A DNA stretch of 64,000 nt, from the NCBI GenBank assembly GCA_013697915.1, contig JACCVY010000247.1, forward strand, positions 1 through 64,000, read 5' to 3'. The position numbers and the translations under genes are program-made. Of the stretch, positions 36,663-43,954 are shown piece after piece. This DNA is from Blastocatellia bacterium. GTDB lineage: Bacteria; Acidobacteriota; Blastocatellia; Pyrinomonadales; Pyrinomonadaceae. The notes below the pieces were generated by a model, which saw only the letters and a list, made by a program, of their open reading frames with translations, did not search any database and was not told the DNA's origin. Numbering within the stretch: position 1 is the stretch's first letter; each line of letters begins with the position of its first letter.

Positions 36663-37730
36663 TTAGCTGACGCGACGGGGACGGCTGAATATCCAGGCAA
36701 CAAATATCGAAACTACGTACAGCACGATCATGGGCGCTGCAAATAAGAGCATGTTCGGAATATCGTTGGTTGGCGAAAGCACCGCCGCCGCTATCAGAAT
36801 CACGATTAGCGCCGTTTTCCAAATGCGAATAAGGAGTCTCGCAGTCACCAGGCCAATTCGCGCGAGTACATAGGTGATCGCGGGCATTTGAAAGACGACT
36901 CCCATGCCTAACATCACAATGATTATGAAATCAAAGTAGTCGTCGGCTTTCAGCAGCAACCTGAAGTCCTGCCCCAGACCCAAAAGATATTTTGCAGCCG
37001 GCGGAAAAATAATCTTATATGCAAACGCTGCTCCCAGCACGAAAGAGATCGACGAAAGCGCGATGAAGGGTGTGACGTAGGCACGCTCGTGAGGATAAAG
37101 CCCCGGCGAAACAAATGCCCAGATTTGCCACAGTAAGAATGGTACGGACAAACAGAGCGCAGCGTACAACGACACTTTCACGTACAGCGCAAATGGTTCC
37201 ATCGCGCTGGTAACAATTAGCTTGTCGCTAATTCCTGAATCCGCTTCCGGCGGGGCCTTTAAATCCACCGGCAGACGCACGCCCTTGGGAATAATCGTGC
37301 TCCCGGCGTACAAAGGCTCGTCGGTAAAAAGACCAACTTGTCCCCGCGAATCTTTTAACGCCCGCGCCGTGACGGAAGCGCCGGCGGGAATTACACTCGT
37401 GCCCAACTTGGTCTCCGCCGGAAAGATATAACAGCCGAGGTCATTTTCCTGAACCGAAGTAAGCGGGAGTATTCTCTCGTTCCCTGTTAATCCATTGATT
37501 GGCACCTGGCGTCTTTGCGCTTCGGCAAGCGCTCGTTCGACGGGAACCGCAAGAAAAGCATAGATGCGGTCCGAAAAAAACCAGCAGACAGTCGCCGCGA
37601 GAAAGACGAATATAAGCGAGCGCATCAGACGACTGCGCAGTTCGTCGAGATGCTCGAGGAAAGACATCTGCCCGCCGAGTTCATCTTCCTTTGACCGGCC
37701 CGAAGCAAGCGCTTTGAGAAATGTTGACAT
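36663..37730 (-). CDS. tatC: Twin-arginine translocase subunit TatC with enlarged first periplasmic loop
   Basis: A 355-residue TatC. The signal-peptide-binding N-terminal motif FLEHLDELRSRL (24-35), the first helix (38-52), EPF (178-180) and the later helices are all present. Between helix 1 (ending near P63) and VTSAMEPF there are about 110 residues, where ordinary TatC has roughly 15-25. The insert (about 65-170) is polar and beta-like, with TGNERILPL, CYIFPAETKLGTSVIPAGASV and STIIPKGVRLPV. It should lie in the periplasm near the substrate entry side. TatC is the receptor of the twin-arginine export system. tatA/B lies just upstream, 28 bases away, on the same strand. Confidence 0.93.
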   Translation of the reverse strand: MSTFLKALASGRSKEDELGGQMSFLEHLDELRSRLMRSLIFVFLAATVCWFFSDRIYAFLAVPVERALAEAQRRQVPINGLTGNERILPLTSVQENDLGCYIFPAETKLGTSVIPAGASVTARALKDSRGQVGLFTDEPLYAGSTIIPKGVRLPVDLKAPPEADSGISDKLIVTSAMEPFALYVKVSLYAALCLSVPFLLWQIWAFVSPGLYPHERAYVTPFIALSSISFVLGAAFAYKIIFPPAAKYLLGLGQDFRLLLKADDYFDFIIIVMLGMGVVFQMPAITYVLARIGLVTARLLIRIWKTALIVILIAAAVLSPTNDIPNMLLFAAPMIVLYVVSIFVAWIFSRPRRVS

Positions 37731-40316: not shown

Positions 40317-40526
40317 TTAGAACGTCGACACGAGCGCCAACAAGAAGTCGGCAAGCGTGCCCAGCGCATCAGTCGATACAGTTGGGGCGCCGCTCGAAAC
40401 GGGGCAAGGCGTGCCAATTTCACACGTAACGGGGGCGCCGGGGCTGCTGATGTCGCCGGCAAATACGGAAACGCTAAGAGTCAGGGACAAGACGGTTGCC
40501 GTGCAGATCGCTTTCATCGTTTTCAT
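40317..40526 (-). CDS. Small exported peptide, divergent from a TPR regulator
   Basis: A 69-residue gene starting at ATG 40526 with GGAGAG upstream. Residues 1-23 are a signal peptide (MKTMKAICTATVLSLTLSVS then VFA). The mature part is about 46 residues: a Pro/Ser/Gly-rich segment with C35 and C41 (CEIGTPC, able to form a disulfide) and a hydrophobic C-terminal stretch, ALGTLADFLLALVSTF. I do not recognise a family. The next gene, on the other strand, encodes a TPR/Fis-type regulator; the two starts are 162 bases apart. The pairing suggests an exported signal or a regulated small protein, as discussed in the findings. Confidence 0.65.
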   Translation of the reverse strand: MKTMKAICTATVLSLTLSVSVFAGDISSPGAPVTCEIGTPCPVSSGAPTVSTDALGTLADFLLALVSTF

Positions 40527-40571
40527 GGTTTTCTCTCCAATTCGGTTTTTTCGGGTTAACGATTGATAAAA

Positions 40572-40602
40572 GCAGTTGAGCACGAGGTGGGAGGCCAACT
40601 GC
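40572..40602. promoter_or_regulatory. Inverted repeat in the peptide/regulator divergent region
   Basis: GCAGTTG (40572-40578) and CAACTGC (40596-40602), exact arms with 17 bases between. Candidate operator for either divergent gene. Confidence 0.4.
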
Positions 40603-40647
40603 GGGATTACTAAAACGAGGCGCATCATATCCACATGTTTACTTCCT

Positions 40648-40663
40648 TGCAAGGATTCTTGCA
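40648..40663. promoter_or_regulatory. Short palindrome just upstream of the TPR regulator
   Basis: TGCAAG-GATT-CTTGCA, exact 6-bp arms, 26 bases before the regulator start and close to its AAGGAG (40674-40679). A site for autoregulation is possible. Confidence 0.4.
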
Positions 40664-40688
40664 TCGCAAAATAAAGGAGCACCCTCAC

Positions 40689-42248
40689 ATGAAAATAGAC
40701 TTTATGGTTTCAGCCAGCCGTGACGAGGCCAAAACGGCCTCTGCCCTTCAAATTGGGCTAGTTTGCCGCCGCGCAAAAGAGCTCGAGGACGCTGGGGAAT
40801 ATGAGTCTGCGCGCGCCGCTATGAGTCCCTATTGGGAACGGATTGGCGAACGTCCTGAAATGGAAGGCGAGAGCGCATTAGATCGCGCTGAAGTGTTTTT
40901 GCGGGCCGGAACACTCTCTGGATGGATCGGAAGTGCACGGCAAATAACCGGCGCGCAGGAATTCGCAAAGGATCTGATTTCCGAAGCTGCTCGTCTTTTC
41001 GAAGAAGCACAGCTCGTGGAGCGCGCGGCCGAAGCTCGGGTAGACCTCGCAATCTGTTATTGGCGTGAAGGCGCTTTTGACGAAGCGCGCGTTACGCTCG
41101 ACGATGCCTTGCGACAGCTTGGAGATCTTCAGAGCGAACAGCGGCTGCGCGCTTTGTTGAACCGAGCTATCGTCGAAAAAGTTTCCAATCGCTATGAAGA
41201 CGCGTTGCAAACCCACCGCGAGGCAGCGCCGCTGTTTGCAATCAGCAGCAACGATAACCTTAGAGGTAAGTTTCACAACGAGTATGCGACGGTACTGAAG
41301 AACATCGGGCTCGCCAATAACCGCGAAGATTACATTGACCAGGCATTGGTGGAATATTCGGCCGCCAGCTTCCACGCTGAGAGGGCCGGTAATAAGCGCT
41401 TTCACGCCTTGGTTGAAAACAACGTCGGTTACCTTTTTGTACGCCTGGGTCGTTTCACTGACGCGACCAATCATCTCGATCGTGCCCGCTTACTTTTCAA
41501 GGCGCTAAAGGACAAGGGCATGGTGGCCCAGGTCGACGACACGCGGGCCAGAGCACTGATTGCTCGTGGCAGTTTTACTTCTGCTGAGACAGTGGCGCGC
41601 GGCGCGGTACAGTCACTAAAAGAAGGCGACGAGCTTTCCCTGCTGGCAGAAGCTTTGACCACCCACGGGACAGCTTTGGCGCGTTTAGGTAACTTTTCCA
41701 AAGCGCGGGCCACATTTGAAAAGGCAATCCGGGTAGCCCACGACGCCGGCGATCCGGAAAGCGGCGGGACCGCTTCACTAACGATCGTCGAGGAGTTAGG
41801 CAGTCAACTTCCTTTTGATGAGGTGCTGGCATACTACCGGATTGCGGAGTCGGAGCTGGGAAACTCCCAGCATCCCGAGATACAAAATCGCCTCGGAAAA
41901 ACTGCGCGACGTTTTCTTGTTACCCACTTTACGTCAGGGTCGCAGCAGCGGAATGATGACAATGGCAGGCGCACAGAGAGTGTGGCCCAGTCGCAATCAG
42001 CGCCGGAAATGTCAGACCTACCGGGTTTTTCGATCGAGGTTTCACTTGAAGAACACGTGCTGCGGTATGAGGCGGACTTGATAAGCCGGGCGCTGGCCGC
42101 CTCCGACGGCAGTGTAACGCGTGCTGCCCGTATGTTGGGAGCTACTCACCAGGGTCTGGCCTTTATTCTTAACGGCCGGCACAAGGATTTGCTCTCCGCA
42201 CGAAAGCCCGTCAAGCGTCGTCGGCGCAGCATAATTAAATATCATTAA
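40689..42248 (+). CDS. TPR regulator with C-terminal Fis-type helix-turn-helix
   Basis: A 519-residue soluble protein. From about residue 15 to 400 it is built of tetratricopeptide-like helix pairs (for example AEARVDLAICYWREGAFDEA, FHALVENNVGYLFVRLGRFTDATNHLDRA, TTHGTALARLGNFSKARATFEKAI). After a polar linker, residues about 455-505 form a Fis-type helix-turn-helix (YEADLISRALAASDGSVTRAARMLG), the DNA-contact domain usual at the end of NtrC-type activators, but with no AAA+ domain here. The tail is Arg/Lys-rich. ATG 40689 follows AAGGAG at 40674-40679. The TPR part probably senses a peptide or protein partner. Gram-positive RRNPP regulators have TPRs too, but with an N-terminal HTH of another class. 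Confidence 0.8.
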   Translation: MKIDFMVSASRDEAKTASALQIGLVCRRAKELEDAGEYESARAAMSPYWERIGERPEMEGESALDRAEVFLRAGTLSGWIGSARQITGAQEFAKDLISEAARLFEEAQLVERAAEARVDLAICYWREGAFDEARVTLDDALRQLGDLQSEQRLRALLNRAIVEKVSNRYEDALQTHREAAPLFAISSNDNLRGKFHNEYATVLKNIGLANNREDYIDQALVEYSAASFHAERAGNKRFHALVENNVGYLFVRLGRFTDATNHLDRARLLFKALKDKGMVAQVDDTRARALIARGSFTSAETVARGAVQSLKEGDELSLLAEALTTHGTALARLGNFSKARATFEKAIRVAHDAGDPESGGTASLTIVEELGSQLPFDEVLAYYRIAESELGNSQHPEIQNRLGKTARRFLVTHFTSGSQQRNDDNGRRTESVAQSQSAPEMSDLPGFSIEVSLEEHVLRYEADLISRALAASDGSVTRAARMLGATHQGLAFILNGRHKDLLSARKPVKRRRRSIIKYH

Positions 42249-42400: not shown

Positions 42401-43954
42401 ATGAATAAACCTAAAACTGTTTCGCTACTCGTTCTCATGCTGTTTGTGCTTGGGAGCGTCAATGCACAGACCGCGCGGAGACAACGTCCGGCGCGACGCA
42501 GTGTTGCAAAGACTGAAGTTAAGATTCCGGTGGCACAACCGTCGCCAACAGTTCCAACGGTCCGACCGCCTGCCGCGCCAGTTCTGCTGGCTGTGGTGAA
42601 TGGGCAAAACGTAACGACAGCTGAAATTGATCCACGGGCGCGCGAAGAAGCTGAAAATTTAAATGACAAGATTGCGGAAGCGCGCCGCCAGATACTTGAG
42701 CTCCAGGTCAATACATTGTTGCTGGACGCCGAAGCTTACCGGCGAAAAATGACACCGCAGCAGTTGTACGACATTGAAGTAAAGCGAAAGCTAACCGAAC
42801 CGACGACTGCTGAGATTAATAAGTTTATAGAGGCGAATCGCGAAGCAATTAACCAGACCGAACCTGAGGCGATGAAGAAAGAGGTGACTGCTTATTTGCT
42901 GGGGGAGAAAGAGACGCGGTTGTCGGGAGAATTGGTAAATCGACTACGCGCGACCATGCCGGTGGTGAAGGGCGCTGATGTGAACGCGGCGACACTTGCG
43001 CCCGCAACAGTGCTGGCGACGGTGGCCGGCAAAACCATAACGGCGGCGCTGATCGATGAGCGCTTGCGTCCTCTTGTTTACAAGCTTCGTCTGAGTACTT
43101 ATGAGCTGGAAAAACAAGCGCTGGACCAGGCGATCTACAACATGTTATTGCTGGCTGAAGCGGATCGCCGCAACATTGCGCCAGAATCTCTGGTGCGCAC
43201 GGAAATCAGCGAAAAGACGCATCAGCCGACTGAAGCTGAGATCTCAAAGTTCTACAGTGAAAACCAGAGCAGCATTCAGGGCGGGCTCGATGCTGTTCGT
43301 AGTCAGATTGTGAGCTACTTACAGGAGCAGGAGCAGCAAAAACTAGAAAGCGCGTTCGCGGAAAAGCTGAGGAAGCAAGCCAACATTCGCCTGTTAATTT
43401 CTGAGCCCCCGGCGCTGGTGCAGTCGATCAGTGTTGACGACGACCCGGCGCGCGGCGAAGCGGGAGCGCCGGTCACCATCGTCGAGTTCACAGACTTCCA
43501 GTGTCCTTCATGCGCGGCCATGCAACCGATCCTCGATGAAGTGTTGAAGAGCTACGGCAATAAAGTCAGATTCGTGGTGCGTGATTTTCCTTTGTCGGCA
43601 CATGCGAATGCGCGCAAGGCTGCGGAGGCCGCCAACGCCGCCAATGCGCAGGGGAAGTTTTTTGAATATGCCTTGTTGCTCTTCAAACATCAGAACGCGC
43701 TGGATGTGGCATCACTCAAGAAATACGCGAGCGACCTGGGATTGAATCGCGCGCTGTTTGATGCGGCCCTGGACAGCGGCAAGTACGCAGCTGAAGTCAG
43801 GCATGATATGGACGATGGTGAAAAGTATGGCATCGACAGCACTCCTACCATTTTTATCAACGGCGTCGCGCTGACGGTGCTGAGTACTGAAGGGTTGCGG
43901 GCGGCAATCGATAAGGCCCTCGCCGGAACCACGCCGAAAGTCCGCCCCAACTAA
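42401..43954 (+). CDS. Exported SurA-like chaperone fused to a DsbA-type thioredoxin domain
   Basis: A 517-residue exported protein. A signal peptide (1-22, ending GSVNA) is followed by a basic, Pro-rich linker. Two consecutive helical units follow, each opening with a short strand and Thr (LAVVNGQNVTTAEID near 63 and LATVAGKTITAALIDERL near 207), as in SurA/PrsA-type chaperones without the isomerase domain. Residues about 335-510 form a DsbA-like domain with CPSC (C368-C371, in DFQCPSCAAM) and the cis-Pro loop IDSTPTIFING. It should oxidise or isomerise disulfides while its N-terminal part holds unfolded clients. ATG 42401. Free-standing. Confidence 0.83.
   Translation: MNKPKTVSLLVLMLFVLGSVNAQTARRQRPARRSVAKTEVKIPVAQPSPTVPTVRPPAAPVLLAVVNGQNVTTAEIDPRAREEAENLNDKIAEARRQILELQVNTLLLDAEAYRRKMTPQQLYDIEVKRKLTEPTTAEINKFIEANREAINQTEPEAMKKEVTAYLLGEKETRLSGELVNRLRATMPVVKGADVNAATLAPATVLATVAGKTITAALIDERLRPLVYKLRLSTYELEKQALDQAIYNMLLLAEADRRNIAPESLVRTEISEKTHQPTEAEISKFYSENQSSIQGGLDAVRSQIVSYLQEQEQQKLESAFAEKLRKQANIRLLISEPPALVQSISVDDDPARGEAGAPVTIVEFTDFQCPSCAAMQPILDEVLKSYGNKVRFVVRDFPLSAHANARKAAEAANAANAQGKFFEYALLLFKHQNALDVASLKKYASDLGLNRALFDAALDSGKYAAEVRHDMDDGEKYGIDSTPTIFINGVALTVLSTEGLRAAIDKALAGTTPKVRPN

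Follow-up and report, generated by a model that had tools for sequence, protein, structure and literature searches.

The window, which is the whole stretch of 64,000 nucleotides that was analysed, carries two genes placed head to head, a small minus-strand gene for an exported propeptide and a plus-strand gene for a regulator with tetratricopeptide repeats (TPR), whose starts are 162 bases apart. The features of this locus are as follows.

40317-40526, minus strand: gene of an exported propeptide of 69 aa (MKTMKAICTATVLSLTLSVSVFA followed by GDISSPGAPVTCEIGTPCPVSSGAPTVSTDALGTLADFLLALVSTF), supported by the open reading frame, a profile match in its own genome and dN/dS
40320-40367, minus strand: conserved hydrophobic C-terminal tail (ALGTLADFLLALVSTF), from family comparison
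40404-40424, minus strand: second core copy, degenerate, CEIGTPC, from the sequence and the family rule of repeats within one precursor
40437-40457, minus strand: first core copy, GDISSPG, at the mature N-terminus, from the family alignment; its position 2 (D) agrees with K204/N205 of the receptor
40458-40526, minus strand: Sec-type signal peptide, residues 1-23, cleaved after FA and before G, assigned by eye and heuristic
40572-40602, minus strand: inverted repeat GCAGTTG-N17-CAACTGC in the 5′ leader of the peptide mRNA, from an alignment of eight orthologues
40624-40652, minus strand: peptide-gene promoter, with -35 TTGCAA (40647-40652), a 17 bp spacer and -10 TATGAT (40624-40629), conserved in the window's orthologues
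40648-40663, no strand: dyad TGCAAG-N4-CTTGCA overlapping the -35, a candidate operator of the Fis-type helix-turn-helix (HTH), conserved in intergenic regions
40689-42248, plus strand: TPR receptor/regulator of 519 aa, ATG at 40689, from Pfam and an AF2 model
40758-41954, plus strand: TPR superhelix, residues 24-422, proposed peptide sensor, from the AF2 model (pLDDT 91.9) and structural matches to Rap, NprR and AimR
41298-41303, plus strand: proposed specificity residues K204-N205, facing the groove from inner helix A4, from covariation with core position 2
42045-42200, plus strand: C-terminal Fis-type HTH, residues 453-504, from Pfam and AF2
42401-43954, plus strand: downstream SurA_N/DsbA-like exported protein, a neighbour kept in the window's orthologues only

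An earlier sequence-only reading of this DNA had described the 69-residue gene with its signal peptide and CEIGTPC motif, the distance of 162 bases to a 519-residue regulator with TPR-like helices and a C-terminal Fis-type HTH, and two exact inverted repeats at 40572-40602 and 40648-40663, all of which were confirmed on the sequence. Two of its details could be refined: CEIGTPC turns out to repeat a motif that occurs first, as GDISSPG, at the mature N-terminus, and the proposed hydrophobic C-terminal helix is indeed a hydrophobic C-terminus, better described as a short conserved tail. The open reading frame is preceded by the ribosome-binding site GGAGA and is matched by the peptide-family profile in the window's own genome at E=1.4e-15; no match to the peptide was found in Pfam or NCBIfam. 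The regulator matches the Pfam models TPR_12 (E=1.5e-15) and HTH_8 (Fis; E=1.9e-5), and Pfam finds no AAA+ domain in it. The genome is a 4.5 Mb draft with one copy of the module. Elsewhere in the window, a TatC-like gene (36663-37730, minus strand) apparently has about 100 extra residues inserted behind its first membrane helix. The exported protein at 42401-43954, which adjoins the orthologous modules, consists of SurA_N-like repeats fused to a DsbA-type thioredoxin domain.

The module is a conserved pair of genes in the Pyrinomonadaceae, a family of the Gram-negative Acidobacteriota, where dozens of paired genes occur. Of 102 distinct regulator homologues whose TPR start is intact, 97 can be judged because their upstream sequence is long enough, and 92 of these 97 (95%) have a divergent ORF with a ribosome-binding site for a Sec-type exported peptide of 50-94 aa, the signal peptides across homologues being called by a heuristic. 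A look-alike divergent ORF was found beside 14 of 205 control genes (7%), none of them family-like. In the reverse direction, 73 of the 82 matches to the peptide profile, from 59 genomes, stand head to head with a regulator, and several of the remaining ones sit close to contig ends. The dN/dS ratio of the peptide gene is 0.14-0.53 in 16 of the 17 pairs compared and 0.72 in the other, indicating purifying selection in nearly all of them. The sequence-only reading had named two outcomes that would refute it, namely homologous regulators consistently lacking a small exported neighbour and a 69-codon frame not conserved in relatives, and neither was encountered. Some relatives have about ten copies, the richest genomes containing 10-11 strong profile matches. 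Among the relatives is Pyrinomonas methylaliphatogenes K22, a cultured, Gram-negative bacterium, whose locus L140 has GEMGTG cores. A DNA ligase gene and the gene of the SurA_N/DsbA protein flank the module among the window's orthologues only. The idea that the paralogues share common downstream targets was rejected, as those other than the window's orthologues have no shared neighbours.

For five to seven receptors no partner peptide was detected (L130, L146, L197, L198, L072, L035 and L071). Of these, L130 and L146, probably together with L197 and L198, seem to form a single receptor clade, and it is possible that receptors without a detectable partner listen to the peptides of other systems. 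Tandem propeptide genes also occur, with two beside one receptor (L060) and three beside another (L065), and their cores are related but different.

The precursors of the family share a layout. The signal peptide, ending in AxA before G, is their best-conserved part; a hexamer core comes next, in most cases followed by a Pro-rich linker, and many precursors have another core ahead of the hydrophobic tail. The core consensus is roughly G-x-[I/M/T/V]-x-[T/S/I]-[P/G/D], and the hexamer in the window is GDISSP. A precursor holds one to five copies, cores often being repeated two to five times inside it. At an identity of at least five of six residues, a core recurs within its own precursor in 35 of 92 cases and across precursors in 1.4%; 86 of the 92 cores are distinct. 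Deep relatives encode plain tandem arrays, such as GNITSRT in five copies (the final one being GNITSRA), AGTISTT[KR] in five and PGDISGK in four. In three pairs of close paralogues the copies have been altered in concert, with GNIGSPG/GNIGSPG versus GQIGTPG/GQIGTPG, GIIHTE/GIIHTE versus GIIWTE/GIIWTE, and GETSTPPC/GETSTPPC versus GETATPPC/GETATPPC.

In the AF2 model of the receptor, built from a 73-row alignment, a TPR superhelix of about nine helix pairs (residues 2-422) is followed by a flexible linker and a four-helix HTH. The best bacterial structural matches are peptide receptors, namely RapF-PhrF and the Rap of phi3T (Z 29.2 each), RapJ (28.1), NprR (27.4), the pLS20 Rap (22.8) and AimR (22.2); domain III of MalT reaches 26.7. 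The structural match alone is weak evidence because TPR superhelices resemble one another, and the eukaryotic TPR proteins APPBP2 and APC5 match about equally well. A sequence search of the PDB found NprR only marginally (E=0.004-0.009), below the TPRs of kinesin light chain, and none of the RRNPP-specific Pfam models was among the regulator's matches at E<=1.

The output domains of the family are exchangeable. In 108 members they comprise an HTH alone (51), an HTH with a receiver (34) and AAA+ with an HTH (18), and deeper relatives carry a histidine kinase with a receiver (L189) or, in a phage copy (L178), an S24 domain. The GAFTGA loop of the AAA+ members is mostly degenerate (GSFTDA or similar), three having GSFTGA. 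On the TPR tree the output type switches at least 15 times, at least nine of these switches being forced by strong branches, and the peptide is retained; it is therefore the TPR domain, and not the output, that goes with the peptide. At the loci L189-L195, TPRs are joined to a hybrid histidine kinase (HisKA, HATPase_c and, in L189, a receiver) and the propeptides are tandem arrays, for example GNITSR[TA] in five copies; at several of these loci a second TPR-family gene adjoins, without a detected peptide. On sequence grounds these receptors may be read as intracellular peptide-sensing kinases, peptide binding being inferred.

Evidence for a contact between peptide and receptor comes from their covariation. 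The mutual information that receptor columns share with core positions is highest in the inner helices of TPR 3, 4 and 6, and among the informative pairs the strongest joins receptor residue 204 to core position 2. Core position 2 is E (26) or D (11) where residue 204 is R, and D (17) or N (5), never E, where it is K; with a hydrophobic core position 2, residue 204 is T, I, M, N and similar. Residues 204 and 205 together are net positive in 55 of 56 cases with an acidic core position 2 and in 4 of 36 with other residues (phi 0.89). When 175 residue pairs were compared, only those including 204 stood out (0.89 and 0.79), the next unrelated pair reaching 0.43. We take residues 197, 201, 204 and 205 to be TPR groove positions 5, 9, 12 and 13, the canonical numbering being inferred. 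The same charge code was met in 23 deep and phage loci outside the discovery set, where residues 204-205 are net positive in nine of nine acidic cores and two of 14 others (p=7e-5), and where all eight N cores go with an acidic residue at 205. Cores at these loci were assigned by eye, and the net-charge rule was phrased after their residues 204-205 had been seen. The in-sample p-values carry no correction for relatedness, and only a few sister pairs are strictly independent, about four of them in favour of the charge code and none against it. Covariation of core position 1 with residues 93, 280 and 266 was set aside because this position is nearly always G. The groove-core coevolution, including that in the out-of-sample loci, supports peptide sensing by the TPR domain, which the sequence-only reading had put forward as a possibility, although binding has not been demonstrated.

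The intergenic region points to a second link between the two genes. The right half of the dyad at 40648-40663, on the minus strand, overlaps the -35 element of the peptide promoter, and the dyad is matched at 11 or more of its 12 positions in 25 of 92 intergenic regions, across paralogues, compared with 0.2 expected from shuffles. The conserved dyad supports the earlier suggestion that the regulator controls expression of the peptide; binding of the Fis HTH at the dyad, and thus self-control of the module, is inferred without binding data. The arms of the other repeat, at 40572-40602, show complementary changes and enclose a loop of variable length in the eight orthologues, as judged by eye without statistics, and therefore this repeat is more likely to form an RNA hairpin than to be an operator. 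Although the window genome encodes sigma-54, control of the peptide promoter by it was rejected, since its sites are no commoner than in shuffled sequence. A large regulon was also rejected, with 13 dyads at one mismatch or fewer in the window genome versus 12 for a reversed-pattern control. This genome has two other exact dyads, of which one precedes the gene of a 266-aa exported protein and the other separates two ORFs. With one module copy and few other exact dyads, the regulon of the window genome looks small.

We hold with good confidence that the locus is a self-contained peptide-signalling module. The pairing, the export signal, the repeated cores, the groove-core coevolution, the dyad and the output swapping are computational observations; processing, re-import, physical binding, the sign of regulation and wider targets are inferred. 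The propeptide would be exported by Sec, and the cut by signal peptidase would place the core hexamer at the mature N-terminus. Core peptides would then be freed by proteolysis in the periplasm or outside the cell and brought back by an oligopeptide permease; five SBP_bac_5 matches are present in the window genome, and Pyrinomonas K22 has oppABCDF (PMC4644332). Inside the cell, a core peptide could bind the concave groove of its cognate TPR receptor, residues 204-205 reading core position 2, and the Fis-type HTH of the receptor would bind the dyad over the peptide promoter. With the receptor on this dyad, signal and receptor would form a feedback loop, whose sign, activation or derepression, is undetermined.

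The alternative that survives best, though we regard it as unlikely, is that the TPR receptor binds the peptide inside the cell before export, so that the module gauges how much peptide is made, or whether secretion fails, and tells the cell nothing of its environment or population. The pairing and the groove-core coevolution would then need no import step, and the hydrophobic C-terminal tail could keep the peptide at the membrane. However, the repeated cores, the Pro-rich linkers and the start of a core precisely where signal peptidase cuts fit release of short peptides after export, the paralogue-specific cores suit signalling specificity over stress sensing, and the phage copies described below favour communication. 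Small exported peptides with cognate regulators are generally common, and the sequence-only reading had offered a regulated small secreted protein as its simpler account; an ordinary secreted effector, such as an antimicrobial or surface peptide, with a TPR protein that regulates it on another cue, would nevertheless predict neither the covariation of core position 2 with groove residues 204-205, nor identical core repeats within each precursor, nor a TPR domain that stays constant amid output swaps, and we judge peptide sensing the better reading and the effector very improbable. Equally improbable is a core-TPR correlation arising from shared descent alone between co-inherited divergent neighbours. 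In its favour, receptor clades do share core types and relatedness is not fully corrected; against it, signal-peptide positions with the same tree and history lack comparable peaks in the same helices, the only pairs to stand out contain residue 204, which faces the groove from an inner TPR helix, and deep and phage homologues outside the discovery set obey the charge code.

Copies on phages extend the module beyond cellular genomes. Six IMG/VR contigs (L174-L179) carry the receptor, each with a divergent peptide gene, which in L177 starts with GTG. Five of them have terminase, portal, tail or endolysin genes, and the sixth has NinB and a DNA methyltransferase; the terminase family phrog_2 was not found in these contigs, which do contain further families of terminase, portal and tail genes. 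In L176 and L177 the next substantial gene encodes a CI-type repressor, and an integrase lies nearby in L174 and L176. No match was found in 50,697 annotated phage records, and further viral scans gave no additional copies. The arrangement resembles arbitrium (AimR-AimP of Bacillus phages) in combining a TPR receptor with an exported peptide on phages of apparently temperate type, and differs in its Fis HTH or S24 output, in another presumed host phylum and in that no target has been shown. By this analogy the phage copies are a possible counterpart of arbitrium outside Bacillota, their function and host not having been shown.

Compared with known systems, the module comes closest to the RRNPPA family of Bacillota (Rap-Phr, NprR-NprX, PlcR-PapR and AimR-AimP). 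In RRNPPA systems the receptor adjoins a gene for a Sec-exported propeptide, in which the mature peptide is at times present more than once (PMC9765709, PMC11343458). The module is alike in its adjacent Sec propeptide (92 of 97, by heuristic), its intracellular TPR receptor with a structural match over about 350 residues, its paralogous expansion and its phage copies, and by the AF2 model and the groove covariation it also has the RRNPPA trait of 5-9 TPRs wound into a superhelix around a concave pocket for the peptide. It differs in belonging to Gram-negative Acidobacteriota, in a peptide gene that is divergent and upstream rather than downstream, in a peptide with its core at the mature N-terminus, a Pro-rich linker and a hydrophobic tail, and in a C-terminal, interchangeable output (Fis HTH, AAA+, receiver, kinase or S24) instead of an N-terminal one. 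The family is defined by an N-terminal HTH or three-helix bundle (PMC9765709), and because this is absent the module is not a member, although by analogy it would work like RRNPPA quorum sensing. The earlier comparison with RRNPP regulators thus holds for fold and mechanism and fails for membership. The large paralogous family, the repeated cores and the phage copies were beyond the reach of that sequence-only reading.

Other regulators share only parts of the module. Bacterial enhancer-binding proteins of the NtrC/FleQ type (HTH_8) have the same C-terminal Fis-type HTH, and about one sixth of the module family has AAA+; in the module, by contrast, the sensor is a TPR domain, AAA+ is often missing, GAFTGA is mostly degenerate and sigma-54 promoters are not enriched. 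MalT-type regulators share a TPR sensor domain; MalT itself senses maltotriose, carries an ATPase and a LuxR-type HTH, and is not known to have a partner peptide gene.

TPR receptors that sense exported peptides inside the cell have been described from the Gram-positive Bacillota and from phages of these bacteria, and a large-scale survey was confined to the genomes of Bacillota and viruses (PMC10075063). A literature search that did not cover subscription papers or preprints found no earlier description of the module. Although binding, secretion and expression data are lacking, these Gram-negative bacteria very probably use an undescribed peptide messenger system. Little is known of how Acidobacteriota, which abound in soil, communicate. 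On balance, though with distinctly less assurance, we favour the broader view of an undescribed peptide-communication superfamily assembled independently in a Gram-negative phylum. In this view, multi-copy Sec pheromone precursors are read by TPR receptors with swappable outputs, certain genomes hold about ten or more separate channels, part of the specificity code can be deduced from sequence, and the phages that carry the module may exploit it as others do arbitrium. The family offers a wealth of receptor-peptide pairs on which the charge code can be tested, and Pyrinomonas methylaliphatogenes K22, Gram-negative and with opp genes, is a cultured host for such tests. The phage copies allow one to ask whether peptide messages guide lysis-lysogeny decisions outside Bacillota.
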